Below are positions 9,260 to 61,661 of a stretch of DNA of 64,000 bases, piece by piece. Location of the stretch: the NCBI RefSeq assembly GCF_963576615.1, contig NC_088711.1, positions 12,385,869-12,449,868 on the forward strand. Direction: 5' to 3'. Under the pieces are notes generated by a model. It worked only from the letters and a program-made list of their open reading frames with translations. It had not been told where the DNA came from and searched no databases. The DNA is from Watersipora subatra (lineage: Eukaryota; Bryozoa; Gymnolaemata; Cheilostomatida; Watersiporidae). The number at the start of each line of letters is the position of its first letter. Within the stretch, counting starts at the first letter, position 1. The translations under genes were made by a program, and so were the position numbers.

Positions 9260-12200
9260 CTACAAAAGTAAAACAGTTTAAATAATATTTGATGTAGCGG
9301 GCAATGAAGGTTCCTGCAAAGCTTTTTATCCATTGTAGCCCGCCTGCATAGGAGTTCAACAAATGGAGGCAAAAGTTATTAAAAAAACTGATGAGTTTAT
9401 TGTGGTCATACTCCTTCAAACTTTGTATGTTACTTCTTTATGAGTTAATACATGCAGAAAAGTGGGATGTTCATTAGTTTAAAACAGCACTAAAATACTG
9501 TACACAAGAGAAGAGAAGTCAACCGATAAAGTAAGTATACTTTTAAATAGGAATAAATGATTATCCAATCCGTCTCATTCTTACCTTGTTTATAGTGCTA
9601 GTACACCAACAATTTATTACGTACAACATATATGTTCCGATACAGACCGACATTTTGAGGTATATTGTGGTGTGACTTTGTTGGAATTGACATAGCTAAC
9701 AATAGAGTTACTTATCATATTGACGTAGCTAACAATAGAGTTACTTATCACAGCTAAAGTTGTCTATTTAAAGATTCTGATGCATAAACTGTAATTGGCA
9801 GACTGAGTTCTTTTGAGCCCGCGAGCCTTGAGACTGAGAGTAGAGAGACAGGACTAGAGCTTTCTAACTGTACGCACACACGCACGCACACACACACACG
9901 CAATCAGAGTTGACACTTACTTGCAATACTTTAGTATGCACACTCTGTTGAGGCTCATTGACATCATAGAGTGGTGGCTTGCATTCAACTGACTTGTTGA
10001 TACGAAGATAGTGACCGGATCGAGACTCATAAGCGTCACTGAATATAACAAATATAAATTATTGTTTTCAAGTTGTATACACGTATGACTTGAAATAAGC
10101 AAAAAATGTATGTGGTGTGATCTTATCTGTACATGTCTTATCTGTAAAAAACGAAATGTTCAGAATTTAGCCTGCAAAATCATTCAAATACATAATTGTA
10201 CAGCTGCTTGGATTACATATTTGAAATCAGGACAAATTTAATATATAATGTATGGCCATTGACTAAATTCACTATGGCTGACAATGTTGTGAATGAGAAT
10301 TTTAGTTTGCCAACAAAGGTACAGTTTATTTCGCATACGACTAAATATTATTGTTTTCTTTTATTGCTAAGAATGAAATAAAGCCTTCCAAAATTAAGAC
10401 TACCATACTTGTCACAGCTTACTGTAGAAAAGACTGATATTGAGTTGTAACCAATTAATTACACTATAGTAATAACCTCTTCATATTTTATGTTAAAACC
10501 AATTTCAGACTCGCTTTCCTCAATATGACCTGAATGCAATAATGTGTTCAGATGTAGCCTACAAATCCATCATATAAGCTTATATTTAAAAAAATAAAAA
10601 AAGTTGATTATTTGCATATTTCTAGAAAAGCTAAGATGGGAGATTTTGCACCTGTTGTTTTTCTAATATTTGAATAAGTTTGATAAAAAGATTTTAAGGA
10701 CATGCAATATTAGCTAATAGTAAACTGCTGACATTTAAACCATTGCGACTGTGACATAATATATGAGCAGTTTGTATTGAAACACAGCAAAACTCCATAG
10801 CCTTGAATCCCGAGACATACATTCTCAAAAAAGTAGATGCGATAATAATGTACCCGTATATACTTTCCTAATGAGATTTGTTTTTATGGCAAATATTAGT
10901 CTATCTTAAACCAAGTTCTACTCGATCTTAGAAGAAAATAAATATATGCAGTGCGGCTAATAGCATGAAATGTGTTCATTTACTGGAATAGATAGTCAGC
11001 TATATAACTACTATGACAGTACTTTCTATTTGTTATTGACCTGCGTTACTGCTCGTACTCAAGATTACGTAGTAGTATATGTCACAGATAGGATGCTTGC
11101 AAGAGTATCATTGAGTTTCCATGAACCGATGCAATTAAGATGCAGTACCTAATATTTTGTTATTCCAATGCAATTGACAATGCAGTTATCTGCCTTGAAT
11201 ACCATGTTGAGCCGCATGGTTTCTCAAAACGGTGTGAGTTTCCTATAGCAATTCTATTAAATAAAACTTCAAAATGTAACTAAAGCCTGTTTTCTATAAA
11301 CAAATAGCATGAGTTTTTTGTGTTAACTTTTTACAAATAACATGTCCTACTAAAATATCTTTTGAGTGGTTCTTTAGTCAGATTAGGCAACCTGAACTAA
11401 CAATGATATTATATCGATCTAAAAAGACTAAGTCTTGGAATAACAGCCACTCAAAAATCATGAAAACACTAATCATCACAGTTCATTTATGTTCAACAGG
11501 CTATTCTGACTGAAGATAGGTTATACGAGCTCAATGTGATAATATAAAATATGGGCTACTTACTTTATCTGCGCTTGATACCGTTCAGGAGTGAGGCTTG
11601 AGCCATGCAGAGAAAGAGACCAGGTTTCAAGAGTACCCGAGCGATAAGGGGTTAAACTGCCGGAGCTCTTGTCAGTGATAACGAGCTGGTATAATCCAGC
11701 AGGCCTTTCACCCCAGCACTTTACCGTAGAGAACGTCCACGCTTGAAAGCCTTTTTTCCTGGAGTAACAAGAGCAAATTAAATGAATGCAGAAATTGATA
11801 ACTATTAACTACAAGTATGTGATACATGGTTGATTTTGACCATTTTTAAAGTTTATAAGTGAAAAAGACACATTTGTGTAAAGCGCATTCGAAATGAACA
11901 AAACAAAAACAATTACCATTAAGCTAAATAAGGAATAAACAGTGCTACAGATCAGAGACCATAGGCCTAACAGCCTTAATTTAACAAATTCTTATGCCGC
12001 TTGCATCCAACAGCTATATAAAATCATAATGTACAAACTACATGTAAGTTAGTGTAGTAGAGCTGCTAACAGTTTCACACAGAGTACGAATAAAAGTCAA
12101 AGACAAAAGCATTACGATATATTTAAGCACATTATTCTTCGGTGTGGTTGCTGCGGTTGATCATTATAAATATAAATACTACTTCGCCGGTCTTTTTACT

Positions 12201-14796: not shown

Positions 14797-17700
14797 AGGA
14801 GAGAGAAAAAAACCATTTGCATACGGCAAGGATGTTGGTGATCACGACTAAAACAAATTGTTAAAACTGTCCATTAGTGTTATACCTCTTGATCAAAAAG
14901 ACTAGAGAACAAGCATTTTGGCTGAGCAGAAAGCAATGAAACATGGATATGAGTAATGTTAATGACAAACATATTATGACAACATATAGGAGGTAGCGCT
15001 AGTCACTACATAACCTTGTTAGCCGTTAAGTAATACCTTAGCTGCGTTGACAATATTCCATGGACTGATCAGTCCAAACCCATGTTTGTGGCTGTGGTTG
15101 AGGCCAGCAGCATTTGTTCTCCAGTCTGGGTCTCCTTCATCAACCTGCAGCATACAACTGAGTCTTAATGCAGCAGCCATCTAATTATTAACTTTCAAGT
15201 GTGGTAAAGCTTGGTTTCCATAGGCGCGCGACGTCATGCGTAGGCCAGCTGCGATGTGAAAACGTCAACGCAAGACGATCGCGCGACGTGTGTATGCTGA
15301 TCGCAAGGATCTAACGGAATGGATCCTTGCGACGGGTGCGCGCGATGATGTATCCCACAATACACCGCTCGACCTTTTCAACCTATCCCACAATTCTAAC
15401 GGAAGGCTATTTTCCGAAGAAATCGGTCTCCCGTACGAAAGAGTAAGCATGGTTTTCATATGACAGCGCAAGGGCGCAACGGTGGGCTGTTTTCCGAAGA
15501 GATCGGTCTCCCGTACAAAAAAGTAAGGAAATTACCCACCCTGTCCAATGCAAGCATGGCGCCTACGCGCGCTATGGAAACACTGCATCGCAGCCCAAGA
15601 AATGCATTGCGCACGATCACTGGGCCGCGCACGAACATTGTGCTGTCATATGAAAACCAGGCTTAACTAAGTTCACTTATTAAATTATTAGATTAGAAAA
15701 CAAATTCAATCTAAACGGTTTAATATCGATTTTCAAACGTCTCAGATCTCAAACAAATCAGTGTTTGAACAAAAACTCTACTTTTTGCTTCACATGTCAA
15801 AAAGATTTGAAACTAGAACAGTCCCAGATAAAACATAGAAACCCGACAACGCATTATTTAACAAGCTGACTCTTTTTTCCCCCAACTCTCTCTCTAGTTA
15901 TGTTAAACCATAACTGTCACGAACAACTTTTATCGTATTTACTAGGTAAATCAGACACGCTGATTCCGATTTTGTAATCAAAATAAAGATTAGGCCACTA
16001 ACTTTCAGAGTAATGAAGGATTTTTTATAGCGTTTTAATATCAGTCTCGAAAACAACACGATCGGCGTAACAAGCTCCGCCCATAAATACTTGACGTAAC
16101 CTAGCTTTTTAGGAACAGAAGTTACGTAAGGATGTTTAGACCGATTTAGAATAATGGAGATGGGTGTTTTAAAATCCATTAATATCTAAATTCAGCCTTA
16201 AAAATAATATCAGTCTTTTCTGAAAGGTAGATAAGCTATTTAGCATTGCATATTTAAAAAGTGCGATAACAACGCTAGCTCGTGATAAAACCGCGCTTTT
16301 TGAGCTCATTTTTCTCGGCGTCCAGCCCATTTAAACGTCATGTAACAAGCTGCGAGCAATTTTAAATAGTTTATATCCCTTTCATAAAAAACTGAAACTA
16401 TTTTACAGGCTGGATTTAGATAATAATGGGTTTTAAGACACCCATCTCTATTATTCTAAATCGGACTAAACATTCCTAACTTCCGTTTCTGAAAAGCTAG
16501 GTTTCGTCACATATTTATGGGCGGAGCTTGTAATGCCGATTGTGTTGTTTTCGAAACGGATATTGAAACGCTTTAAAAAAGCCTAAATGACTTTGAAGGT
16601 TAGTGGACTAATCTTTATTTTGAGTACAAAATCGGAATCAGCGTGTCTGATTTACCTAGTAAATACAATAAAAATAAAAGTTGTTCGTGACAGTTATGGT
16701 TTAAGTATTCATCCAATTGTATTTTGAGTGTTGCCTATATTGATGTATTGTTTTATTTTTATCTTTTATTCGAATAAAACTCTTAAGCTATTTCTACACT
16801 TTTTATTTTATACATCGACGTCGAACAGCCATCAGTAAAAGAGTGCTGTCGACCACCGAGGTCGAAATATTCTGGAGGTCAGCATAAAATGAATGGCGAA
16901 TTTAAAACTAAAAATCACATGCTGAGTAAATATTATACTAGCTAGTAGTACAGTAACCAAGGTAGATGATATACTAGCTAGTAGTACAGTAACCAAGGTA
17001 GTTGATATACTAGCTAGTAGTACAGTAAGCAATGTAGGTGATATACTAGCTAGTAGTACAGTAAGCAATGTAGATGATATACTAGCTAGTAGTACAGTAA
17101 GCAATGTAGATGATATACTAGCTAGTAGTATAGTAACCAAGGTAGATGATATACTAGCTAGTATTACAGTAACCAATGTAGATGATATACTAGCTAGTAG
17201 TACAGTAACCAAAGTAGATGATATACTAGCTAGTAGTACAGTAACCAAGGTAGATGATATACTAGCTAGTAGTACAGTAACCAATGTAGGTGATATACTA
17301 GCTAGTAGTACAGTAACCAATGTAGATGATATACTAGCTAGTAGTACAGTAAGCAAAGTAGGTGATATACTAGCTAGTAGTACAGTAAGCAAAGTAGGTG
17401 ATATACTAGCTAGTAGTACAGTAACCAATGTAGATGATATACTAGTTAGTAGTACAGTAACCAAGGTAGTTGATATACTAGTTAGTATTACAGTAACCAA
17501 TGTAGATGATATACTAGCTAGTAGTACAGTAACCAATGTAGATGATATATTAGCTAGTAGTACAGTAACCAATGTAGATGATATACTAGCTAGTAGTACA
17601 GTAACCAATGTAGATGATATACTAGCTAGTAGTACAGTAACCAAGGTAGATGATATACTAGCTAGTAGTACAGTAACCAATGTAGATGATATACTAGCTA

Positions 17701-20700
17701 GTAGTACAGTAAGCAAAGTAGGTGATATACTAGCTAGTAGTACAGTAAGCAAAGTAGGTGATATACTAGCTAGTAGTACAGTAACCAATGTAGATGATAT
17801 ACTAGTTAGTAGTACAGTAACCAAGGTAGTTGATATACTAGTTAGTATTACAGTAACCAATGTAGATGATATACTAGCTAGTAGTACAGTAACCAATGTA
17901 GATGATATATTAGCTAGTAGTACAGTAACCAATGTAGATGATATACTAGCTAGTAGTACAGTAACCAATGTAGATGATATACTAGCTAGTAGTACAGTAA
18001 CCAAGGTAGATGATATACTAGCTAGTAGTACAGTAACCAATGTAGATGATATACTAGCTAGTAGTACAGTAACCAATGTAGATGATATACTAGCTAGTAG
18101 TACAGTAACCAATGTAGGTGATATACTAGCTAGTAGTACAGTAACCAATGTAGATGATATACTAGCTAGTAGTACAGTAACCAAGGTAGATGATATACTA
18201 GCTAGTAGTACAGTAACCAATGTAGATGATATACTAGCTAGTAGTACAGTAACCAAGGTAGATGATATACTAGCTAGTAGTACAGTAACCAATGTAGATG
18301 ATATACTAGCTAGTAGTACAGTAACCGATGTAGATGATATACTAGCTAGTAGTACAGTAACCAAGGTAGTTGATATACTAGCTAGTAGTACAGTAACCAA
18401 TGTAGATGATATACTAGCTAGTAGTACAGTAACCAAGGTAGTTGATATACTAGCTAGTAGTACAGTAACCAATGTAGATGATATACTAGCTAGTAGTACA
18501 GTAACCAAGGTAGTTGATATACTAGCTAGTAGTACAGTAACCAAAGTAGATGATATACTAGCTAGTAGTACAGTAACCAAGGTAGATGATATACTAGCTA
18601 GTATTACAGTAACCAATGTAGATGATATACTAGCTAGTAGTACAGTAACCAAAGTAGATGATATACTAGCTAGTAGTACAGTAACCAATGTAGGTGATAT
18701 ACTAGCTAGTAGTACAGTAAGCAATGTAGATGATATACTAGCTAGTAGTATAGTAACCAAGGTAGATGATATACTAGCTAGTAGTACAGTAACCAATGTA
18801 GATGATATACTAGCTAGTAGTACAGTAACCAATGTAGATGATATACTAGCTAGTAGTACAGTAACCAAGGTAGATGATATACTAGCTAGTAGTACAGTAA
18901 CCAAGGTAGATGATATACTAGCTAGTAGTACAGTAACCAATGTAGATGATATACTAGCTAGTAGTACAGTAACCAAGGTAGTTGATATACTAGCTAGTAG
19001 TACAGTAACCAAGGTAGATGATATATTAGCTAGTAGTACAGTAACCAATGTAGATGATATACTAGCTAGTAGTACAGTAACCAATGTAGATGATATACTA
19101 GCAAGTAGTACAGTAACCAATGTAGATGATATATTAGCTAGTAGTACAGTAACCAAGGTAGATGATATACTAGCTAGTAGTACAGTAACCAATGTAGATG
19201 ATATACTAGCTAGTAGTACAGTAACCAAGGTAGATGATATACTAGCTAGTAGTACAGTAACCAATGTAGATGATATACTAGCTAGTAGTACAGTAACCAA
19301 TGTAGATGATATACTAGCTAGTAGTACAGTAACCAATGTAGATGATATACTAGCTAGTAGTACAGTAACCAAGGTAGATGATATACTAGCTAGTAGTACA
19401 GTAACCAAGGTAGTTGATATACTAGCTAGTAGTACAGTAACCAAAGTAGATGATATACTAGCTAGTAGTACAGTAACCAAGGTAGTTGATATACTAGCTA
19501 GTAGTACAGTAACCAAGGTAGTTGATATACTAGCTAGTAGTACAGTAACCAAGGTAGATGATATACTAGCTAGTAGTACAGTAACCAAAGTAGATGATAT
19601 ACTAGCTAGTAGTACAGTAACCAAAGTAGATGATATACTAGTTAGTAGTACAGTAACCAAAGTAGATGATATACTAGCTAGTAGTACAGTAACCAAGGTA
19701 GTTGATATACTAGCTAGTAGTACAGTAACCAATGTAGATGATATACTAGCTAGTAGTACAGTAACCAAAGTAGATGATATACTAGCTAGTAGTACAGTAA
19801 CCAAAGTAGATGATATACTAGTTAGTAGTACAGTAACCAAAGTAGATGATATACTAGCTAGTAGTACAGTAACCAAGGTAGTTGATATACTAGCTAGTAG
19901 TACAGTAACCAATGTAGATGATATACTAGCTAGTAGTACAGTAACCAAGGTAGGTGATATACTAGCTAGTAGTACAGTAACCAAAGTAAATGATATACTA
20001 GCTAGTAGTACAGTAACCAATGTAGATGATATACTAGTTAGTAGTACAGTAACCAAGGTAGTTGATATACTAGTTAGTAGTACAGTAACCAAGGTAGGTG
20101 ATATACTAGCTAGTAGTACAGTAACCAAAGTAAATGATATACTAGCTAGTATTACAGTAACCAATGTAGATGATATACTAGTTAGTAGTACAGTAACCAA
20201 GGTAGTTGATATACTAGTTAGTAGTACAGTAACCAAGGTAGATGATATACTAGCTAGTAGTACAGTAACCAAAGTAAATGATATACTAGCTAGTAGTACA
20301 GTAACCAAAGTAAATGATATACTAGCTAGTAGTACAGTAACCAATGTAGATGATATACTAGCTAGTAGTACAGTAACCAAAGTAGATGATATACTAGCTA
20401 GTAGTACAGTAACCAAAGTAGATGATATACTAGCTAGTAGTACAGTAACCAAAGTAGATGATATACTAGCTAGTAGTACAGTAACCAAGGTAGTTGATAT
20501 ACTAGTTAGTAGTACAGTAACCAATGTAGATGATATACTAGCTAGTAGTACAGTAACCAAGGTAGATGATATACTAGCTAGTAGTACAGTAACCAAGGTA
20601 GATGATATACTAGCTAGTAGTACAGTAACCAATGTAGATGATATACTAGTTAGTAGTACAGTAACCAAGGTAGTTGATATACTAGTTAGTAGTACAGTAA

Positions 20701-23700
20701 CCAATGTAAATGATATACTAGTTAGTAGTACAGTAACCAAAGTAGATGATATACTAGCTAGTAGTACAGTAACCAAAGTAGATGATATACTAGCTAGTAG
20801 TACAGTAACCAAGGTAGTTGATATACTAGTTAGTAGTACAGTAACCAATGTAGATGATATACTAGCTAGTAGTACAGTAACCAAGGTAGATGATATACTA
20901 GCTAGTAGTACAGTAACCAAGGTAGTTGATATACTAGCTAGTAGTACAGTAACCAAGGTAGTTGATATACTAGCTAGTAGTACAGTAACCAAGGTAGATG
21001 ATATACTAGCTAGTAGTACAGTAACCAATGTAGATGATATACTAGCTAGTAGTACAGTAACCAAGGTAGGTGATATACTAGCTAGTAGTACAGTAACCAA
21101 AGTAAATGATATACTAGCTAGTAGTACAGTAACCAATGTAGATGATATACTAGTTAGTAGTACAGTAACCAAGGTAGTTGATATACTAGTTAGTAGTACA
21201 GTAACCAAGGTAGATGATATACTAGCTAGTAGTACAGTAACCAAAGTAAATGATATACTAGTTAGTAGTACAGTAACCAAAGTAGATGATATACTAGCTA
21301 GTAGTACAGTAACCAATGTAGTTGATATACTAGCTAGTAGTACAGTAACCAAAGTAGATGATATACTAGCTAGTAGTACAGTAACCAATGTAGATGATAT
21401 ACTAGTTAGTAGTACAGTAACCAAAGTAGATGATATACTAGCTAGTAGTACAGTAACCAAAGTAGATGATATACTAGCTAGTAGTACAGTAACCAATGTA
21501 GATGATATACTAGCTAGTAGTACAGTAACCAAAGTAGATGATATACTAGCTAGTAGTACAGTAACCAATGTAGATGATATACTAGCTAGTAGTACAGTAA
21601 CCAAAGTAAATGATATACTAGCTAGTAGTACAGTAACCAAAGTAAATGATATACTAGCTAGTAGTACAGTAACCAAAGTAAATGATATACTAGCTAGTAG
21701 TACAGTAACCAAGGTAGATGATATACTAGCTAGTAGTACAGTAACCAAAGTAAATGATATACTAGCTAGTAGTACAGTAACCAAAGTAAATGATATACTA
21801 GCTAGTAGTACAGTAACCAAGGTAGATGATATACTAGCTAGTAGTACAGTAACCAAAGTAAATGATATACTAGCTAGTAGTACAGTAACCAAAGTAGATG
21901 ATATACTAGCTAGTAGTACAGTAACCAATGTAGATGATATACTAGTTAGTAGTACAGTAACCAAGGTAGTTGATATACTAGTTAGTAGTACAGTAACCAA
22001 GGTAGGTGATATACTAGCTAGTAGTACAGTAACCAAAGTAAATGATATACTAGTTAGTAGTACAGTAACCAAGGTAGGTGATATACTAGCTAGTAGTACA
22101 GTAACCAAAGTAAATGATATACTAGCTAGTATTACAGTAACCAATGTAGATGATATACTAGTTAGTAGTACAGTAACCAAGGTAGTTGATATACTAGTTA
22201 GTAGTACAGTAACCAAGGTAGATGATATACTAGCTAGTAGTACAGTAACCAAAGTAAATGATATACTAGCTAGTAGTACAGTAACCAATGTAGATGATAT
22301 ACTAGCTAGTAGTACAGTAACCAAAGTAGATGATATACTAGCTAGTAGTACAGTAACCAAAGTAGATGATATACTAGCTAGTAGTACAGTAACCAAAGTA
22401 GATGATATACTAGCTAGTAGTACAGTAACCAATGTAGATGATATACTAGCTAGTAGTACAGTAACCAAGGTAGATGATATACTAGCTAGTAGTACAGTAA
22501 CCAATGTAGATGATATACTAGTTAGTAGTACAGTAACCAAGGTAGTTGATATACTAGTTAGTAGTACAGTAACCAATGTAAATGATATACTAGTTAGTAG
22601 TACAGTAACCAAAGTAGATGATATACTAGCTAGTAGTACAGTAACCAAAGTAGATGATATACTAGCTAGTAGTACAGTAACCAAGGTAGTTGATATACTA
22701 GTTAGTAGTACAGTAACCAATGTAGATGATATACTAGCTAGTAGTACAGTAACCAAGGTAGTTGATATACTAGCTAGTAGTACAATAACCAAGGTAGATG
22801 ATATACTAGCTAGTAGTACAGTAACCAATGTAGATGATATACTAGCTAGTAGTACAGTAACCAATGTAGGTGATATACTAGCTAGTAGTACAGTAACCAA
22901 TGTAGATGATATACTAGCTAGTAGTACAGTAACCAATGTAGATGATATACTAGCTAGTAGTACAGTAACCAATGTAGATGATATACTAGCTAGTAGTACA
23001 GTAACCAATGTAGATGATATACTAGCTAGTAGTACAGTAACCAAAGTAGATGATATACTAGCTAGTAGTACAGTAACCAAGGTAGATGATATACTAGCTA
23101 GTAGTACAGTAACCAATGTAGATGATATACTAGCTAGTAGTACAGTAACCAAGGTAGTTGATATACTAGCTAGTAGTAGAGGTAGTAACCAATGTAGGTG
23201 AAATGTATGCCACATGTCAAGAGAGGTCACATACCTTGACAGATGTGAGCACAATGAGATGTTGAATGTCCCTCCAGGAGAGACAAGGATTGACAGAAAG
23301 AACAAGAGCAATTACTCCCGCTGCCAGTGGTGCAGCAGCACTCGTACCAGAATGAGAGTTAGTACAGCCAGTACTTTGTGGCCGATGCGTCACATCAGTT
23401 GTTACCTACAGACAATAGCAAAGGTAGTCAATCATCAGTTGAGATGAAAGCATAGAGCACTATACAACTGAATATACTGAACTGTTCATCCTCAGTTGAG
23501 ATGAAAGCATAGAGCACTATACAACTGAATATACTGAATTGTTCATCCTCAGTTGAGATGAAAGCATAGAGCACTATACAACTGAATATACTGAATTGTC
23601 CATCTATTGTTATGATATACAACAATCCCTCGTTACTTTCTGGCTAACCTTTCGCAGTTGCTGTACTTCGCGGTTAAACAACGTTCATTAGAAAATAAAA

Positions 23701-26700: not shown

Positions 26701-29700
26701 CTATGTCTTATGATTGATCAAATTCTGTATGATGTCCATTTTATTCCCACGCGTCTTGATGTGTTAAAGTTCAACATCTTTAGAAACTTCAAGCTCAGAA
26801 CTTTTTCAACAGCTGTTAAATGTTTTCAATAAAATATCACAAATTATACTGTTAAACTTTTACCTATGTACATTTGTAAACATAAAAAAGCTTGAAGGTC
26901 TTTTCTGCTTATTTAGGCCATGATATACTTTTGCTATTTTAATAATTAACAACGTCATAGATGAGAGGCAGTATTATGCACTGCCCGTGAGTGTAATCTA
27001 CTATATAAACGGCAATCGTTGTCTATCTGTCTGTCCGCTTTATAGAGTACCGTACTTTTCGGACTATTAGCCGCTACTTTTATATAAGGGCGTGTCTATT
27101 CTGTGGTTTTTTCACCGCTAGGGCGCATTAACGGGAATCTCCGGTTAGTACACGCCCCTATTATAATACGTAACCTGCTATTCATCGTAGGGATGGACGA
27201 TGAATACTGATATGCTAATAGTATGAGTTGTCTTCTCGATATATTGAGTCACCGATAACTCCCAAATATGAGCAGTATAAATAAATTATATGGCGGTCTT
27301 TTTTTCGATACGATCGTACGAAGCAAACTTAATTAATATGAGTAAGTAGTAAAATTAAATTAGTAGTAAATATTAGTAGTGAATTAAATAAAATTTACTA
27401 CTCTTTAAATAAATTAATGAGTAGTAAATTACATCTAATTAATATTTACTGCCAACGTGTACCGGGAAGGTCATGTGAACATTTGTTTCTTGCAACCACT
27501 AGAAAAACGCTGTTCTTTATCTACTATATAAACGGCAATCGTTGTCTGTCTGTTTGATTGAGTGTCCGCCTTATAGAGCGATCTTTCCTTTTATCGTCGT
27601 ACGAATTTCGGTCATACGAAGCGAACTGAATTAATATGTGTAGTAACAGTAAATAAATTATAGAGCGGTCTTTCTTTTTCCATTCGGTCGAACGAAGCCA
27701 ACCGAACTAATATGAATACTAAATATCGTAATTTCGTAATATGGACTATTAGCCGCTACTTTTCTCTGACGATTTGAGCCAAGCGGCTTATATAAAGGTG
27801 TGGCGATTCTGTTGTTTTTCTTTCACCGCTCAGGCGCATTAACCGAAATCCCCGGTTAGCACGCTTTTTAAACAGCAAATTTTCTGCCGTGTTAAAAAGC
27901 ACCTTCCTGAGTTCTGCGGCCTATACAAAGGTGTCTATACAGCTATACAAATGTATTATTTATTAAATAAAATAAATTAACGAGTAGTTATTTACATGCA
28001 ATTAATATTTACTGCCAACGTGTACCGAGAAGGTCACGTAAACATTTGTTTCTTGGAGCCACTGGAAAAACGCATTTCTCACCTACTAAATTTCCACATC
28101 AAAAAGGTAAGTGTTTCTTATACGATGTTGTATTGTATATGAATTGCCACATCTCCACTACTTAATAACGTTGAATTTGCCGCTGTTCGTGATAGTGGGT
28201 CATGTTCATTTCCTTCAGCAGCCGAGTTACTAATTTTTTTTCAGCTACGAGTAGGCCTACTGTAACTTACTATTACAGAACTTTCACGAGTACTCCGAGG
28301 GTTGCGATACGCTATTGTGAAAAGAAAGAGAGCAGCTGCTATCGACTTACAGTCACCCTGCATCAGCCATGACCAGCTATACGTCGCCTGCTCAAAAGTA
28401 GGCACACGCCGAAAACTGTTTCTTCATACGCCCGACAGAAAAACCAAAAATGTTGTCTATCCGCAAGTGTTGCGTTGAACTAAGGAAGAGAGAGAGAGGG
28501 AGAGAGAGGGAGAGAAAGGGAAAGAGAGGGGGGAGAGAGAGAGGGAGAGAAGGGGAGAGAGAAGGAGAGCGAGGAGGAGAGGGGGGAGAGAGAGAGGGAG
28601 AGAAAGAGGGAGAGAGAGAGGGGGAGAGGGAGAAAGAGAGGGAGAGGGGGAAGAGGGACGGAGAGAGAGAGGGGAGAGAGAGAGAGGGGAGAGAGAGAGA
28701 GGGGAGAGAGAGAGAGGGGAGAGACGGAGAGAGGGGAAAGAGGGAGGGAAGGAGAGATGGGGAGAGGGAGATGTAACTGCATATTTGGAGTTGTTTTACA
28801 GTATGAAAGCCAAATCTCAATAAACCTTATGCTGCCCGTGAATCTGTTCCTGTAGGCGGGTAATGCAGCTAGTGTTTTATAAATGAAATAATGTCTTATC
28901 TGCACTTACGACGATAACACCAAAACAAATTAATGTCATATGGCCGAGGGGGGAGGGGGGGGTTCACTGTATATAAATGGATGAATGTTATTTATCTACG
29001 TTCAAGCAACTAAACAACGGTTTGAAAGCTGAAAACTGATATCTTACAATGCCATGCGTGCGCCTTGGCATATGATGGCGATGAAGGTAAGGTGAACCAA
29101 TGAATGTGAATCAATATTGAGTCAGTTTTGAACCACTGTCACATATATTCAGTTCCAACAGGAAACATTTATGGAATAAAACTCACCTATGGTCACAAAG
29201 TACATGGAGTTGGCATAACCGTCAAAGTTGCAATTATCAAAGTTTTTTCCACCATTGCCACTAGCGACAACATATATACTTCCATATCCATTTCTTCCTT
29301 TCATTATACCGTTTCTTATGGCAGCCTGCACAAATAAAATATATTTGTGAAAATATGCATGACCTCTGCTAAGGGTTCCAAATATATGTCAAGCATTACG
29401 GCCTATTCACCGATCAACTTTTCATGCGTATAAAATACAATATGAACTACAATAGAACGGAAATTGCATTCGTGATAATACAATAGAACTAATCAGCAAC
29501 TATCTGTAGTTCATTGTGAGTGCCCATACATGTAAGAGTGTAACTCGGTCAAGAATGATCAAACAGGTTTCAAATATCATCTACACAGCAAACAGTAGAA
29601 TGTTCCCTCTCATAATATCACCCTTTCTAAAACGACCTTAGGCCTCTACCTTTGACCTTCAGTGACAGGTTACTGCTTATGAGACTGACGAGTAGGTATA

Positions 29701-32700: not shown

Positions 32701-35700
32701 ATTAAATGACATTATTATTATAATGTTATTATTAATATTAGTAATTGATGCTATAGATCTTGTAGCGAACCAACGAGGATTTCCATTCACTTTATCCGAC
32801 ACACAGTCCTTGTATCGAGACTGCCATATTATAAGTGGACTAAATCATATTATTACCATGATTAGTAATAAATGAAACGAACTAGGGAGAGATGCTGAGC
32901 TCACTCGATCTTGATGAGCCCAAGTAACTTTATCAGCCAATTAACAAGCCCTATCTACAGACAATCTATGTCATATCTATAAGAACAAAGAGAATACATG
33001 GACAAGACTTACCTTAGCTAACGTATGGGGCCCGTCTACTGTCTCCCCATCATCCTCTGGACCCCAACTACACGAATAGATATCATTAATTGCGTGCTTG
33101 GCAGCAAAGGCATCACGCTCAAGCAGGTCAGTCATGCTGCCATCTAATGCTCGCACTCCTGCAAGATGCCAACTCAAGTGATTCAAATGAAACAAGAAGT
33201 GCCACTTAGAAGCTTATTTTAGACTAAGGAAGCTTTCCGACTACTTACTAGTATTCTAGAGGTACACGCGATTGAATATCGAAAAACATACCCACAGATG
33301 AATCCAATGAAACATTTTTAGCATACAAGGAAAGCAATCAATTATCATTGAATATAAACATTAAAATGTTTACAAAGATCTCAGGCTATGACTCTGAATG
33401 ATACATGAACACACATAGGCTATCTCGGTTATCATGTACCTCTGCATACTCCAATCCAAGTAAAACTACTGTTATTCTCCTAGAATCCTGAGAGGTAGCC
33501 TCATGTTCCTAATCACTTCCTACACAGAGGAAGCCAAATGTAACTTGAGATAAGAGCAATTCTAAAGCCAGCAATTTGTTCCCTTCAAGTCTCTAAGCAT
33601 TGAATGTCAGTCCACATTCCTTTCTGGCTACGCATTGCTAAATAACTGCATATTTAGCTGTGTACTGTTGCGCAAGGCCCATTCAAAACAGCCCTGCAAT
33701 CACTTTGGTCATCTTTAGCCTGTGAGGCATTAAAATATAACTTTGATTAATGAGAAAAACATGGTACACGGCAAGTATCATTTAATGTGACATGTGACAG
33801 TTTTGAGTTTGTCCGTCACCAAGTATTTAGAAGAAATGGGCAACAGCTCTGGTGAACTGGCCTTATCAATGGACAGCCACTCCCATATGATTAATGTAAT
33901 AACACAACTAAACGTATTTCTCTGCTGAAGGTCCAGAAAAAAAGCCTCGTGAATTCATCTCCAAGAACACGCGTTGGCATGTTTAAAGGAAAACCTACAC
34001 GTGTAACATCCTATAAATTGAAATGTTTCATATTGATTGGAATTCATCCAAGCATGTTGAGTTATTTTTGAATTTCATGGTGACTTCGGTCCCTCAGTAC
34101 TTCCATGAATCATTCTCAGAGAAAGGGTTACGAATAGTTTATTAATACTGTTTGAAATATTACTCCTCTAAAGGCACCCACCACGCAGCAAGTAATACGA
34201 GAATTGATAAAATCTGTCGTGTTAACGAGCATAGGGCCAGCATAGGTTAAACACAATGTCGACCGAGTTATAACATATCAGATAATTTTAGAAGCTTCTT
34301 TTTCTAGAATTTTTGCTCTGCATTGTTGTACTTGTTTGCTCTGTTAGACAAGCCCTGGACCTATATGACCAAACTACATGTACTTTTAGTTACAACAAGA
34401 AAGTTAATCAGAGAAACAGTCTGATCTTCCTTCACTTCTGCCCTATTCAAACAGAGGATAGCCTGTAGTACTATTGTGATGGTTCATCTCCAGCATAACT
34501 TAATGTGTGTAAAGCGGTGCAAGCCTATAGAGAATCCCCAACCTTTGTGTGCACACCTTGGTATGGAAGGTCTTGTAGTGATTTCTTACTGCTCCAAAAA
34601 CATAATTCAATCTTTTGCCCAAACAATTCTCATTCAAATCTGAGCTGATATCTATATATATATATATATATATACCATTATTATTATTATATATATATAT
34701 ATAAATCTAAGCATTTGTTAGTCTCTCATCCGAGTGTCCAGTTATAGTGATAAAATTATAGGAACAAAATACCACTCCGTACTAGAATTGAACTCGGAAA
34801 CAGTGGTTTAGCAGACAGGCGCGCTAATCGCTATGCCGCACAGCCACCTTGCCATAAAATGTAACAATTGTTTGGTTACTAAACTTACTACTAGCACACT
34901 GGAAGATCCCCATTGCGTGAAAGATCATGATGCGTAACAATTACAAGTAGCCTACAATTATTTCCAGCTGTGGAAAACCGGCTGCATGGCTTACTGGTAG
35001 TGCACTTAGTGTCACATCCATGTATCCTCTGAATGAACGGGTTCAACTCCTGTAAGGTACAATCTTTTTTTCTGCGCGGACGAAAGGACACGGCTTTTAT
35101 TATAGTAAAAATTTAGCCTAGCTTGAGTTACTCAAATTCAATGGGTAAAGAAACTTAGCCAATGGCAACTACATTATCTAACGCTTTTTTAAGCTGTTTT
35201 AAATTTTGCACGAATGTGTAGCGTAAGAGGTTAGAGAAGTTTTTAACAAACTGTTTTAGCTATGCCTCGAGCTTTCAAATATTTGAACTATGCATTGGCT
35301 GGACACGCAGAAATAAACAAACACCTTCATTTAAAAGTCAGAATGGTAAATGTTGTATATATTGATTATCAATACTTTTTCTGTGCAAACTTTTTTATTA
35401 CTAGCGCAACGCCGGGCATTCAACTAGTAACTTATAAAACAGCTCAAGAGCAACCAACCTGATATGGAAGCCTCATAGGCTATTCCTACACCGCATATAC
35501 CATTGTTGGCCACGGCTGCAATCTCCCCAGCGCACCGAGTACCGTGTTCATTGTGATCTACAAATACATTCCATTAACAAAAATTATTGTCTCTACACAT
35601 TCTTCACTTTTTTCAATTTTATACATGACTAGCTGTGCCTCCCGGCGCTGCCCGGGTGTTAAAAATCAGCTTATAAACTAAGTAAGCTAGTAAGCTTACT

Positions 35701-37492
35701 GATTCTAAGCTAGTAAGCTAGTAATTCCAGTAAGCTAAGCTAGTTAATAGGCACTAGGCTTCTAATGGTGGTAGGTCATGACGTTGCGCCAGCATTGCTG
35801 TTCAGCTCCAGCTATTCTAATAATAGCTATAGCCGGAATGACAGACAGACGACAGACATAGTATGCTTTGAGAAATATATATATATATATAGATAATTCC
35901 AGTCATGCAAAGCGTAGCACTATATGGAAACTAGATGAATTTAATGCCAGTAACTTCTGCAAAAAAAAATAACAGAAGATTCAAACAGCAAGTTGATGCT
36001 TGTATGAACAAACGAGCCTCACAACAAAGACTGGCTAAATCTCACTCTTCACGTTCAGATAATGCATAGCATTGTTGAGAGCCAGACATGTTGTGACAGT
36101 GGTGGCTGCTGGACAGCTTACAGGAAGCAGCACTTCCATACTGTACAGGAAGTAACACCTGCAGTTGGTGGCAAAATGCCAAAAATCAGTTATTTATTAG
36201 CTACATACAGAGCACGACACCGCGCATTAGGATGCCCTGCTTCTTGTAGCTTGCTGTATTGGAATGAAGGTGATATATAAGCTTTATTAATCATATAGCT
36301 GAGCAGGTATGTAAAGGTAGAAACTTTGATAATCATATGGAGAATTGTTTACTCTTGTTCCTTGCAGGTTGAAATGAAAAAAACGGAATGATCGTTAAGA
36401 AAAACATGTGACGATAACTCCTGGTGAGAGGATAATGTTAGTAAGATACACTAAATGAATTTCACTTTGTATGACTAATGCAGCCATTTTATTCAATAAT
36501 ATTTTAGATTATAGAGACATTAACATATACATTTTACTTGTTTGATATGCCAAAGCTAGGCAGCTAAGTCTCCATCAGTGCTAAAGTTAAAACGTTAGAA
36601 GGATCAACTTTGTGACCGGAAGAAGAACACTTGAAACAGGCCCCAAGGCTAGAATGATTGGATGCTCAGTCTAGTAAATACATTTAAATCTGTTCGGTTA
36701 CAGAGGTAAAACTCAAGCCACTGACCGATTGGTTTGCCATTGAGTTCATTTGGCATTGGATCATTATCGTGATCATTTAGGTCTATGCTTCCCTCAGGGT
36801 TGTAGTTGTCCTTGAGATCTGGGTTGTCCCACTCTAGACCATCATCGACAACAGCCACGGTCACATTGCGTCCCGTGACGCCGAGTGCCCAAACACCTGA
36901 CACATTTAGGTACACAGTCTGCTCAGGACTATTGCTGGCATCTGGGTGCTAAAATCATTCCAAGTAGTACAAAGTTGGGTCTGAAAGCAAAGGCTTCCTC
37001 CTGTGATTGCGAGCTGCTACACAAAATAAAAGCATCACAACACAAGCAGATCAAATGTGTACATACCAAGTGCCACTGCTTAGTATAATTGGCATCATTA
37101 AATTTTATTCTCCGCTTGAACCTGTGCCTTTCCCAAATTTCTGCATACCACTCAACGTCCTTCAGCTTGTTAAGTTGACCATGCAGATGCTCCTTGTTGG
37201 CACGAACCGCGGGAGCACATGTTGTGTTGCTAAACGCGCATGAGCCATTGGCAAAATGGTAAGTGTGAGTATAAATATAACAGTCATCTATGAATAAGCA
37301 AGGCGATGTGTGTACAAGGCCAGCATCCAACAAGTCTGAAGTGGTATTCTTGTCAGCAAAATCTCTAAGTTTGATGGCATAGAGCATTGTCTCAGCATGA
37401 CTACCCTTCCAGTCAATATGGTTGAGCACGAGCTTGCTAAGAGACAAGCTGCTAAGAGCAAGCCAAATGGCTAATGCTAGAGCAAGAGTCAT
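8966..37492 (-). CDS. PCSK7: Proprotein convertase, PCSK7-type (whole gene, 13 coding exons)
   Basis: This encodes a membrane-anchored subtilisin-family (S8B) protease that cleaves precursor proteins at basic sites in the secretory pathway. The joined exons are 37492-37067, 36948-36726, 35557-35459, 33158-33013, 29325-29187, 24268-24174, 23405-23235, 15144-15037, 14458-14359, 13255-13090, 11758-11564, 10038-9921 and 9259-8966. All have GT-AG boundaries and unbroken phase, giving 759 residues (human PCSK7 is about 785). Visible in order are a signal peptide (1-19), a prodomain ending in a basic site (R122 to R128), catalytic D177 (VVDDG), H221 (HGTRCAGE), oxyanion N322 (SGNGG), S398 (GTSAAAP), a P domain (about 434-625) and a single membrane helix (about 663-680). 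There is no Cys-rich domain between P domain and helix, which favours PCSK7 over furin or PCSK5/6. The exact start is inferred. Confidence 0.9.
9866..9902. repeat. (AC)n microsatellite
   Basis: A short CA/CACG run in PCSK7 intron 12, immediately beyond the exon 12 donor region. Confidence 0.85.
9921..10038 (-). CDS. PCSK7: PCSK7 exon 12: juxtamembrane stalk
   Basis: The exon encodes [25 protein letters not shown], comparable to the SGKYLHDDFALPCPP stalk of the vertebrate protein. The boundaries are TTCAG and GTAAGT, leaving in phase 0. Confidence 0.85.
11564..11758 (-). CDS. PCSK7: PCSK7 exon 11: end of P domain
   Basis: The exon encodes [20 protein letters not shown] and [14 protein letters not shown], matching the WTFST.RCWGE block of PCSK7. 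The boundaries are CTCCAG and GTAAGT, phase 2 on both sides. Confidence 0.92.
12769..13070. repeat. 20-bp minisatellite, about 15 copies
   Basis: The unit is GTTACTTGTAGACAACTAGA. The copies are nearly identical, with three single substitutions. It lies in PCSK7 intron 10 and ends 19 bp short of the exon 10 donor. Confidence 0.97.
13090..13255 (-). CDS. PCSK7: PCSK7 exon 10: P domain
   Basis: The exon encodes [25 protein letters not shown], the typical P-domain beta strand. It leaves in phase 2 at GTGAGT. A 20-bp minisatellite starts about 20 bp inside the following intron. Confidence 0.9.
13346..13836. mobile_element. piggyBac-like remnant flanked by TTAA
   Basis: TTAA at 13346-13349 is followed by CCCTTTTGCAGGCAGAG. 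The other end reads CTTGCCTGTGAAAGGA then TTAA at 13833-13836, an imperfect terminal inverted repeat. TTAA target duplication and a CCC-type end are piggyBac hallmarks. Internally, about 13480-13700 on the plus strand reads as an acidic/serine stretch ([17 protein letters not shown]), like the N-terminus of piggyBac transposases. No DDD catalytic core is present. It lies in PCSK7 intron 9. Confidence 0.65.
14359..14458 (-). CDS. PCSK7: PCSK7 exon 9: P domain
   Basis: The exon encodes [20 protein letters not shown] and onward to LSYP. It follows NAAK of exon 8 in the way AAKIW follows in vertebrate PCSK7. The boundaries are TTTAG and GTAGGT, leaving in phase 1. Confidence 0.85.
14757..14810. 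repeat. (GA)n microsatellite
   Basis: An uninterrupted GA run followed by GGAGGAGAGAG in PCSK7 intron 8. Confidence 0.95.
15037..15144 (-). CDS. PCSK7: PCSK7 exon 8: end of protease / start of P domain
   Basis: The exon encodes [20 protein letters not shown] and PWNIVNAAK, the conserved convertase transition into the P domain. The boundaries are CTGCAG and GTATTA, phase 0 on both sides. Confidence 0.92.
15206..15665. mobile_element. GC-rich MITE-like element
   Basis: The ends AAGCTTGGTTTCCATA (left) and TATGAAAACCAGGCTT (right) form an imperfect 16-bp inverted repeat. The interior is much richer in GC and CpG than its surroundings (GGCGCGCGACGTC). It contains an internal duplication of about 45 bp near 15404 and 15484 (TTTTCCGAAGA.ATCGGTCTC). 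No transposase is visible. It lies in PCSK7 intron 7. Confidence 0.6.
15902..16704. mobile_element. Foldback element, copy 1 (about 800 bp, arms about 390 bp)
   Basis: The left half (TTAAACCATAACTGTCACGA) and the right half (TCGTGACAGTTATGGTTTAA) are reverse complements that stay alignable through most of the element. It encodes no protein; the open stretch at 15898-16179 is arm sequence. A second copy lies at 42078-42876. Confidence 0.85.
16934..23200. repeat. Giant 36-bp minisatellite, about 174 copies
   Basis: The unit is ATATACTAGCTAGTAGTACA then GTAACCAANGTAGATG. The 36-bp period holds for nearly 6.3 kb without a visible indel; variation is substitutions only (CTAGCTAG/CTAGTTAG, AGG/AAG/ATG, GATG/GTTG/GGTG/AATG, ACC/AGC). 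Because 36 is divisible by 3, the minus strand reads as an open frame of over 2,100 codons (period [12 protein letters not shown]). That frame is offset from PCSK7 exon 7, so I treat it as non-coding. It fills most of PCSK7 intron 7. Confidence 0.98.
23235..23405 (-). CDS. PCSK7: PCSK7 exon 7: catalytic Ser
   Basis: The exon encodes [20 protein letters not shown] then [10 protein letters not shown] (catalytic S398) and [16 protein letters not shown]. The donor GTATGT at 23234 lies only about 35 bp from the edge of the giant 36-bp array. A 57-bp tandem repeat flanks the acceptor side. Confidence 0.93.
23431..23605. repeat. 57-bp tandem repeat, 3 copies
   Basis: The unit contains CAGTTGAGATGAAAGCATAG. 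It starts about 25 bp upstream of the PCSK7 exon 7 acceptor, in intron 6. Confidence 0.93.
24174..24268 (-). CDS. PCSK7: PCSK7 exon 6
   Basis: This is a short exon (95 bp) encoding [20 protein letters not shown], matching the convertase block between the GNGG and GTSA motifs. The boundaries are TTTGCAG and CTG before GTGAGT, phase 1 to 0. Confidence 0.88.
26997..28085. repeat. Two-copy tandem duplication, unit about 530-560 bp
   Basis: Both copies open with CTATATAAACGGCAATCGTT (27000 and 27522). Both contain GGACTATTAGCCGCTACTTT and GGCGCATTAAC, and close with TGCCAACGTGTACCG (27450 and 28013). The copies are clearly diverged. It is probably a transposon-derived segment in PCSK7 intron 5. 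Confidence 0.75.
28484..28770 (+). repeat. Polypurine (GA/GGGA) tract, about 290 bp
   Basis: Almost pure A/G on the plus strand, built from GAGAGAGGGAGA-type units. Open frames across it are low-complexity artefacts. It lies in PCSK7 intron 5. Confidence 0.97.
29187..29325 (-). CDS. PCSK7: PCSK7 exon 5: oxyanion-hole Asn
   Basis: The exon encodes [14 protein letters not shown], with the oxyanion Asn at residue 322, and [18 protein letters not shown]. The boundaries are TGCAG and GTGAGT, leaving in phase 1. Confidence 0.93.
30254..30608. repeat. 40-bp minisatellite, about 9 copies
   Basis: The unit is TATAATAACCACAATCTATT then TCAATATAATGGTTGTTAAC, with GGTT/GGCT variants. It lies in PCSK7 intron 4. 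Confidence 0.96.
30712..31368. repeat. 16-bp minisatellite, about 40 copies
   Basis: The unit is GAGTAATAGTACCTAT, with CTGT, CATA and GCTA variants in the last bases. It lies in PCSK7 intron 4, just right of the 40-bp array. Confidence 0.96.
31661..32553. repeat. 74-bp minisatellite, about 12 copies
   Basis: The unit contains GGTCCGCTGTACATCTGTTC and ends ATAGATTAACTTATAGTA. Sites alternate TCATA/GCATA and CTCATAG/CTTATAG. It lies in PCSK7 intron 4. Confidence 0.96.
32625..32740. repeat. AT-rich palindromic tract
   Basis: Repeated TTATTAAATAACATTAT in both orientations makes a self-complementary AT island in PCSK7 intron 4. Confidence 0.8.
33013..33158 (-). CDS. PCSK7: PCSK7 exon 4: protease core
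   Basis: The exon encodes [10 protein letters not shown] and [20 protein letters not shown], the convertase signature between catalytic His and oxyanion Asn. The boundaries are TTGCAG and AAG before GTAAGT, leaving in phase 0. Confidence 0.93.
34770..34862 (-). repeat. tRNA-derived SINE head or tRNA pseudogene
   Basis: The minus strand reads GGTGGCTGTGCGGCATAGCG then an A-box-like ATTAGCGCG and a B-box-like GAGTTCAATTC. It shows no well-formed cloverleaf. It lies in PCSK7 intron 3. Confidence 0.55.
34978..35062 (+). repeat. tRNA-derived SINE head
   Basis: TGGCTTACTGGTAGTGCACT resembles an A box, and GGGTTCAACTCC resembles a B box about 50 bp later. It lies in PCSK7 intron 3. Confidence 0.55.
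35459..35557 (-). CDS. PCSK7: PCSK7 exon 3: catalytic His
   Basis: The exon encodes [16 protein letters not shown] with the catalytic His (residue 221). It enters and leaves in phase 1, between acceptor TTGTAG and donor GTTGGT. The conserved block [11 protein letters not shown] runs directly into VRALDG of exon 4. Confidence 0.9.
35627..35893 (+). repeat. Dispersed repeat, short copy
   Basis: It starts CTAGCTGTGCCTCCCGGCGC and ends with the tail AATAGCTATAGCCGGAATGA then CAGACAGACGACAGACATAG and (AT)n. Related bodies or tails occur at 40296-40450, 49862-50275 and 57208-57560. It lies in PCSK7 intron 3. Confidence 0.65.
36726..36948 (-). CDS. PCSK7: PCSK7 exon 2: catalytic Asp
   Basis: The acceptor is TTTTAG. 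The exon begins [10 protein letters not shown] and carries [17 protein letters not shown] followed by VVDDGLEW with the catalytic Asp (residue 177). It ends in phase 1 at ATCG before GTCAGT, a slightly weak donor. Joining to exon 3 restores an Asp codon and the DHNEHGTRC context. Confidence 0.9.
37067..37492 (-). CDS. PCSK7: PCSK7 exon 1: signal peptide and prodomain
   Basis: The exon encodes residues 1-142. I chose the ATG at 37492 because it starts a classical hydrophobic leader ([19 protein letters not shown]) and has A at -3. An in-frame ATG 30 codons upstream (37582) would bury the leader and has a weak context. The exon contains three N-glycosylation sequons (NTT, NGS, NTT). It ends with the basic autoprocessing site RHRFKRR and the mature N-terminus QWHL, then donor GTATGT in phase 0. 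Confidence 0.85.
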
Positions 37493-39637: not shown

Positions 39638-59347
<19,710 letters not shown>

Positions 59348-59802: not shown

Positions 59803-61661
59803 TCAAGCAGTCTCTGGGGGTGCCTCCTTGTCCTTAGGTTCTGGTTTTTGTATAAGAGGCATGAGGCCTGACAAACAGATCAGTGCACAGAATAGCAGAG
59901 CACAACAGATTATAAAAATAAGCCTATTGCCATGGCGGAATGTCTCATCATGCAACAACATTAATACAATGCAAGAGATGATATTCAAAGGCACTCGAAA
60001 CCAGTTCATAATACTAACAGCATGATTTTCAGGGATTATCTCCTCTCGGATGGCGCTAATAGATGCAAAGTAAATGCCAACAGAAATCTGATAGAGAAGA
60101 AAGGAAATGAAACATATTCGAGTGTTTGTATAGTCGGGATGAGTGAAAATGACACAGATACAGCAGCTTATGAATGCCATAGTAATGGACAAAGCAAGTG
60201 CCAATGACTCCGTATGGTACCTGGTGAGAAGCTCATGTAGACTTGTACCTATCATAATGCAAACCATAAAACTAGAGAAAACAACTCCAAGTGAGGGATG
60301 TCCGGGCCAAAGAACAGGGGTCCAGAGGAAGACAATGAGAGCCATAACGCTCTCAAACATAGACTGTATAGCCCCAATCAGCATAATTTTTCGGCTTTCA
60401 TTAATTTCTCGCAATCCTGATAAGCAGGCAGATTTGAATTTGAGATTCTGAGTCCCATAGTTCTCCGACCAAGTAGTCATTATGATGATACCAGATATGA
60501 GAAGACAGGGAATGGCCAGCATAAAGGGGGCAACAGGTCCTAAGTCTAACCATTCAGCAAAAGCATTAGCGATGACTCCACTCAACACCGCGAGTGACCC
60601 ATTCCATACTGAGAGCTTCTTCATCGTTTCTACAATCCACTCTTTCGGCAGATCGTGAGTCTCAATATGTTCGTGGATGTACCAAGCTTCATACGCTGAA
60701 AAGAGCAAGGACGTGGCCACGCCTCCAAACATCCTTCCTAGCAGTAAGAGTCCGTAACTTGTGGATAATTTCATAAAACATGCGATGGAATAGATGACGG
60801 TGAAAACGACACACAAGTTGCGACGACCATATTTGTTCGCGACAAAAGGAGCCCACGTGCCAAGAATCACAGTGGAGGCATATCCAACCACATAGAGCAC
60901 TGCAATTTGTGCTTGCTCAAAGCCATAGTATCGATAGAGCCGGTAAAGGTACGGTCCTTGCAGCCAATCAGCTATCAGAGCCAGGAAGTATGCTGAGAAA
61001 TATTGTCTTTGAAACTTTGTAAAGTTTGGGTTATTTATAACAGTAGAAGCCTTCCTAGATTTCCAAACATAAGTGGTGAGGGCCGCGCAGCAGACGCTCA
61101 ATATTAAAAAGGCTATGTACGTGATGACCATCATCTACAATTAAAACATTTATGTCAGTAAAATGTAAAACAGGCTGACAATAATAAAAAATCTGACACA
61201 GATATAGAAGAAAAGCTATTAGAATGCAATGCAGGAAATCTAAACCTCGAAAGACATTCTTTATGAGTATGTATGTGATGGACTGATTCTCAAGGGCTCA
61301 CTGCACTTGGGTAACTTAGTTTAGCACTCTTATCTGTTAAAGCTGGGTTCATGTTTACTGTGAACCAGCTACAATCAACAACCACATTGTAGGCTTTTCC
61401 TGTCATAAAAATAAGCTAAATTTCACTTTCACCACTGACAACATAAAATCAATCATTTAATTGTTACAGTAAATAGTAGAGAGTGAAGTATCACATAAAT
61501 TTATTGCAAATGTCATGTAAACCTTTATACATCATATCATCACCCTGTTCTATAACACCTCTGAACCTAGCGCAATTAGAACTATCATACTAGTAATGCA
61601 ATGTTGAGTTGGAGTTGTTGTACTCTGCGGGACTAGTACTTACATGAAGTGGATCAGCCAT
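59803..61661 (-). CDS. MFSD5: Major facilitator superfamily domain-containing 5 (molybdate-anion transporter family)
   Basis: The main exon (61134-59803) encodes 443 residues that align along their length with vertebrate MFSD5 (450 residues). Shared blocks include YFLALIADWLQGPYLYRLY, LYVVGYASTVILG, LLFSAYEAWYIHEHIE.HD, LGPVAPF.LAIPCL, IQSMFESVMALIVFLWTPVL, FSSFM and MNWFRVPL. Twelve or so hydrophobic helices are evident. The ATG at 61134 directly follows a splice-like TTGTAG. An upstream exon 61661-61644 (ATG, six codons MADPLH, donor GTAAGT) would splice in frame to give 449 residues. The family is linked to molybdate uptake. The gene lies tail-to-tail with CRMP, about 450 bp apart. Confidence 0.92.

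Follow-up and report, generated by a model that had tools for sequence, protein, structure and literature searches.

The register of a 36-bp minisatellite, probably locus-specific, within a PCSK7-like gene intron of Watersipora subatra needs no special cause

The 64-kb stretch of Watersipora subatra DNA analysed here (the window) contains a long tandem array whose 36-bp units differ by base substitutions and yet keep exact spacing, which raises the question of what holds the units in register. The initial annotation offered two answers, expansion by unequal exchange or gene conversion on the one hand and selection on spacing on the other. TRF reported the array with a period of 36, 173.5 copies, 95% matches, 0% indels and a score of 10992, and when it was cut every 36 bases, all 173 full units were in register. 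Among these, 25 unit sequences can be told apart, the most frequent of which has 43 copies, and two units differ on average at 1.76 of their 36 bases (4.9%). The description of the array as varying by substitutions only, at a few fixed positions, was borne out across the 173 full units, whose variation is confined to 11 of the 36 unit positions with 13 substitution types, seven of them transitions. The consensus unit is A+T-rich (24 of 36 bases; 33% GC), and with a 36-bp unit in 173.5 copies the array falls within the definition of a minisatellite (tandem unit of 9–100 bp). That the array is free of indels holds for the 173 units, by TRF and by the unit tally, but not at the right edge, where the 174th unit carries a 4-bp insertion; this unit, the sole length variant of the array, is unit-like for 17 bases, resumes the unit sequence after the insertion and gives way to other DNA beyond. 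The array end given previously, 23200, includes it.

An intron of a minus-strand gene holds the array, which, counted with its terminal unit, makes up 77% of that intron (Table 1). The exon upstream of the intron is of the subtilase, furin/kexin type, and the next downstream exon matches it in phase, although searched alone in Pfam the downstream exon gave no match. PF00082 was found in three ORFs and PF01483 in one, furin and kexin chains were matched, and the exons of a convertase catalytic domain and P domain occur in order. Two further minus-strand ORFs (32980–33213 and 29152–29388) resemble convertase exons by motif alone and gave no match in Pfam, and motif scanning between 29152 and 23405 yielded no trace of the convertase exon expected there. 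These matches support a minus-strand host gene encoding a proprotein convertase that is PCSK7-like and whose likeness to human PCSK7 is presumed. Of the earlier placement in PCSK7 intron 7, what stands is a position inside a GT-AG intron of a minus-strand, PCSK7-like gene. Given this strand, RNA transcribed from the gene would contain the unit in complementary form. Elsewhere in the window, a minus-strand open frame of 443 aa (59806–61134) matches the MFS_5 transporter family (E 6.6e-77).

Table 1. Positions in the window of the array, its duplicated blocks and the parts of the putative host gene
Feature	Position	Strand	Description and basis
36-bp minisatellite array	16934..23178	+	173 full units and first 17 bases of the 174th; TRF and unit-by-unit tally
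Terminal (174th) unit	23162..23201	+	40 bp, 4-bp insertion; pairwise alignment
11-unit block repeated at 10-unit offset (units 11–21 and 21–31)	17294..18049	+	unit-type string analysis
Block-duplication span, units 88–111 vs 143–162	20066..22765	+	local self-alignment of unit-type string
Host intron	15145..23234	-	GT...AG, 8,090 bp; splice junctions read
Catalytic-serine-region exon, furin/kexin-type convertase	23235..23405	-	Pfam PF00082 E 3.7e-13; PDB furin E 5.3e-14; junctions
Next downstream exon, 3' end approximate	15022..15144	-	motif scan and acceptor
ORF with end of convertase P domain	11563..11808	-	Pfam PF01483 E 5.3e-09
ORF with catalytic-histidine exon (HGTRCAG)	35427..35573	-	Pfam PF00082 E 7.5e-09
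ORF with catalytic-aspartate exon (VVDDG)	36652..36948	-	Pfam PF00082 E 1.6e-06

To judge the register we compared the target with other arrays of the same genome, using 15 stretches of 10 kb taken at fixed coordinates and not selected by content (base 3,000,001 on contigs C1–C11 and base 35,000,001 on C1, C3, C5 and C7), together with the window, 214 kb in all. The best-scoring among overlapping TRF rows was kept if it had at least 5 copies and a period of at least 10. The result was 43 arrays including the target, with 635 substitution types and 101 indel types between them, and 22 of the 43 were without indels, a count to be read with a small array sample and a TRF scoring that somewhat favours low-indel arrays. 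The 15 stretches alone gave 31 arrays covering 21,997 of 150,000 bp (14.7%), 16 of them indel-free, and the window gave 12 arrays covering 10,515 bp (16.4%), of which six, the target among them, were indel-free. No array of the 43 is longer than the target, which is free of internal indels, and it counts against an ordinary register that two other large arrays do carry some, one of 57 bp x 85 with two indel types in eight occurrences and one of 38 bp x 99 with five types in six occurrences; a further array, of 54 bp x 37, has zero indels. Judged by arrays of at least 84% match (target excluded), the 13 substitution types of the target, which give no more than a minimum count of mutations, would be accompanied by 1.49 indel types, with a Poisson probability of zero of 0.22; judged by arrays of at least 90% match (target excluded), the expectation is 1.24 and the probability 0.29. 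Against all 42 other arrays (101 indel types to 622 substitution types), a set that includes many older and messier arrays, 2.1 indel types are expected and the probability is 0.12. Counted by occurrences, a comparison that again weighs against an ordinary register, the ratio of indels to substitutions is 144:1,474 in the other 42 arrays and 0:214 in the target, although occurrences are not independent because units are copies of one another. As 21 of the 42 other arrays, with many unrelated periods, are without any indel and the probability of zero indels is 0.12–0.29, the lack of indels in the target is unremarkable and its register needs no special cause. Selection on spacing, as proposed in the initial annotation, is thus not needed.

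The order of the unit types revealed how the array has changed. The longest repeated string is 11 units, compared with a maximum of 6 and a mean of 4.0 in 300 shuffles, and strings of 8 and 6 units recur at offsets of 52 and 55 units. In the self-alignment of units 88–111 with units 143–162, 19 of 24 columns are identical and there are four whole-unit gaps, with a score of 36.0 where the best of 30 shuffles reached 9.7. Duplicated blocks with whole-unit gaps mean that length changes did happen, in whole-unit steps. Some variants are confined to a region, A at position 32 (17 units) to units 85–157 and G at position 24 (8 units) to units 3–50, while others, G and A at position 28 among them, are distributed over the whole array. 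Adjacent units differ at 1.63 positions against a shuffle mean of 1.76 (range 1.59–1.90) and are therefore not clearly closer than chance, so that slippage by single units either does not dominate or has been overwritten. The array thus combines 25 interspersed unit types with multi-unit duplications beyond those in shuffles. Such duplicated blocks and region-confined variants are expected from unequal exchange or conversion, so that the other proposal of the initial annotation gained support.

A role for the sequence or spacing of the units could be sought at the level of DNA, RNA or protein. The 36-bp spacing might be held by selection, through protein binding, nucleosome or helical phasing, or RNA structure, and 173 units without an internal length variant would fit, as would the palindrome of the consensus unit and the RNA folding result given below. 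The unit had been called TAG-rich and palindromic, and the consensus does contain one perfect palindrome of at least 6 bp, TACTAGCTAGTA, of 12 bp, but in a test with 200 dinucleotide shuffles it is of marginal significance (p = 0.055); across 38 array units, palindrome enrichment reached p <= 0.05 in 0 of 38, with a mean longest palindrome of 4.9 against 5.0 in shuffled units, which does not support palindromes as a common trait of these arrays. When a single six-unit stretch of the transcribed strand was folded as RNA, z was -1.96, with 7 of 200 shuffles equally good, while DNA folding of the other strand of that stretch gave z = -0.45. Structured RNA was rejected, as an Rfam scan of the 64-kb window found no family at gathering score and this one six-unit stretch folds only weakly. 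DNA makes one helical turn per 10.5 bp, and a 36-bp unit does not complete an integral number of turns. Given also that indel-free arrays of unrelated periods are common and that zero indels had a probability of 0.22–0.29 against clean arrays, we consider selection on spacing improbable. Nor does the array appear to be a coding exon, a reading we hold to be scarcely credible. One open frame is kept through the array on each strand (2,091 aa on the plus, 2,159 aa on the minus), and a 200-aa segment of the plus-strand translation matched the Pfam family RNase_Zc3h12a_2 at 24.7 bits, above the cut-off of 23, and HPS3_C at 19.8 bits, below the cut-off of 26.7. However, for neither family did any stretch pass alone, and both matches were set aside as repeat artefacts. 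The open frames are expected by chance, because the unit length is divisible by 3 and both strands stay open in 70% of 5,000 mononucleotide-shuffled units. Furthermore, the plus frame is without an in-frame ATG. Of the 13 substitution types, 11 are non-synonymous there, compared with 82 among the 108 possible changes, and for the minus frame the figures are 10 of 13 and 71 of 108. The array is also inside a minus-strand GT-AG intron. The coding exon was rejected on the chance openness of the frames, the mostly non-synonymous substitutions and this intronic position.

The array might also owe its appearance to the assembly or its presence to a mobile element. Arrays that exceed read length may be assembled wrongly, and the repeat may have been collapsed or wrongly extended. 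Against this speak the structured order of the substitution variants, the imperfect block duplications, the convertase exons in order on either side of the array, and the size of contigs C1–C11 (46–79 Mb, which suggests long reads), all of which are still compatible with a wrong copy number; an artefact seems to us quite unlikely. Some mobile elements carry minisatellites, for example Helitron-like elements of bivalves, and a transposable element that moved here could have brought the repeats with it. The initial annotation had proposed to look for the unit elsewhere in the genome. When we searched 783.7 Mb in 239 contigs, all 75 of the matches listed fell in the target array; the counts are lower bounds, and very common words are skipped. 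The array thus does not behave as multi-locus satellite DNA, and we give an origin by transposition very little credence, on a search made with the unit.

Taken together, these results argue strongly for a large but ordinary, locus-specific minisatellite within a PCSK7-like gene intron, amplified and turned over by exchange or conversion and most likely functionless, in a repeat-rich genome with many arrays of its sort. It is probably a VNTR, as read from one assembly. In this locus-specific minisatellite, one short intronic stretch would have been amplified, after which exchange or conversion out of register, involving either two alleles or sister chromatids, would have kept turning the array over. 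Each such event would gain or lose whole units and spread substitution variants. A small number of independent mutations after the expansion would account for the absence of internal indels, and units of deviating length may also be lost through poor pairing. Splicing would remove the array, which most likely serves no function. On its own the array is of little consequence, its strict register being explicable by recent turnover and few mutations, and it would be usable as a polymorphic marker if it varies between individuals.

Among known systems, MSY1 of the human Y chromosome (25 bp), as portrayed in PMC2599865, has units of 75% A+T and base-substitution variants, and variant-length units are described there as never observed. 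The target resembles it in these respects, being A+T-rich and without variant-length units across its 173 internal units, with the exception of the 40-bp terminal unit. However, MSY1 variants form blocks of one type according to the same account, while those of the target form no long one-type blocks and are interspersed, with neighbour similarity within the shuffle range. The setting of MSY1 is the non-recombining haploid Y (PMC2599865). Where hairpins in the manner of MSY1 are concerned, the values for the target are p = 0.055 for the palindrome and z = -1.96 and -0.45 for RNA and DNA. The interspersed variant units, which PMC2599865 mentions for many autosomal loci, and the unit duplications are features shared with the hypervariable human minisatellites MS32 and CEB1, whose germline instability, as that source relates, has been measured, whereas the target is read from one assembly. 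Intronic arrays of similar unit size are described for TERT intron 6, namely VNTR6-1 (38 bp, 24–66.5 copies) and VNTR6-2 (36 bp) (PMC11830802). Unlike the target unit with its 33% GC, VNTR6-1 is presented in that report as high in G, with predicted G-quadruplexes, and as tied to TERT splicing (PMC11830802).

The terminal unit suggested a look at array edges in general. In indel-free arrays, 28 edge units diverged from consensus by 3.8% and 438 interior units by 3.5%. At the chosen threshold, partial copies were present in 3 of 53 array flanks, one of them with a gap, and raw best matches in 49 control stretches reached up to 22 bases; the terminal unit of the target itself fails this threshold, its first 17 bases having already been taken by TRF. 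Edge decay as a general rule was therefore not found, as edge and interior diverge alike and few flanks hold a partial copy.

The most interesting observation of the analysis is the minisatellite load. About 15% of the 150-kb sample consists of minisatellite arrays with many different periods and units. In three arthropods, all tandem repeats of 1–50 bp together account for genome shares of 1.3%, 2.4% and 2.9%, or 13,254, 24,199 and 28,698 bp/Mbp, as tabulated in PMC3152781. Against this yardstick, which is a rough one as the study used a different program and itself warns against comparison across programs (PMC3152781), the 14.7% array content of our small sample is high. It is conceivable, though we rather doubt it, that a genome-wide process multiplies short locus-private segments where they stand and is inclined to lose units of deviating length, which would give both the array share of about 15% and the roughly one half of arrays that are free of indels, the target being one of its products; whether units are private to their locus was examined for the target array alone. 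If the load holds genome-wide, the species would be a good one for studying how minisatellites originate and how their register is maintained. The second longest of the 43 arrays, in the sampled stretch L010 (1920–6748), spans 4.8 kb with 85 copies of a 57-bp unit at 97% match. The 38-bp array in the sampled stretch L017 (2–3771), with 99 copies at 77% match, 98 substitution types and five indel types, is probably old with its register nearly kept, and is more puzzling than the target. In the window itself, a 167-bp unit is present in two copies at 43817–44156 with 99% match, a recent tandem duplication and perhaps a first step in the birth of an array.
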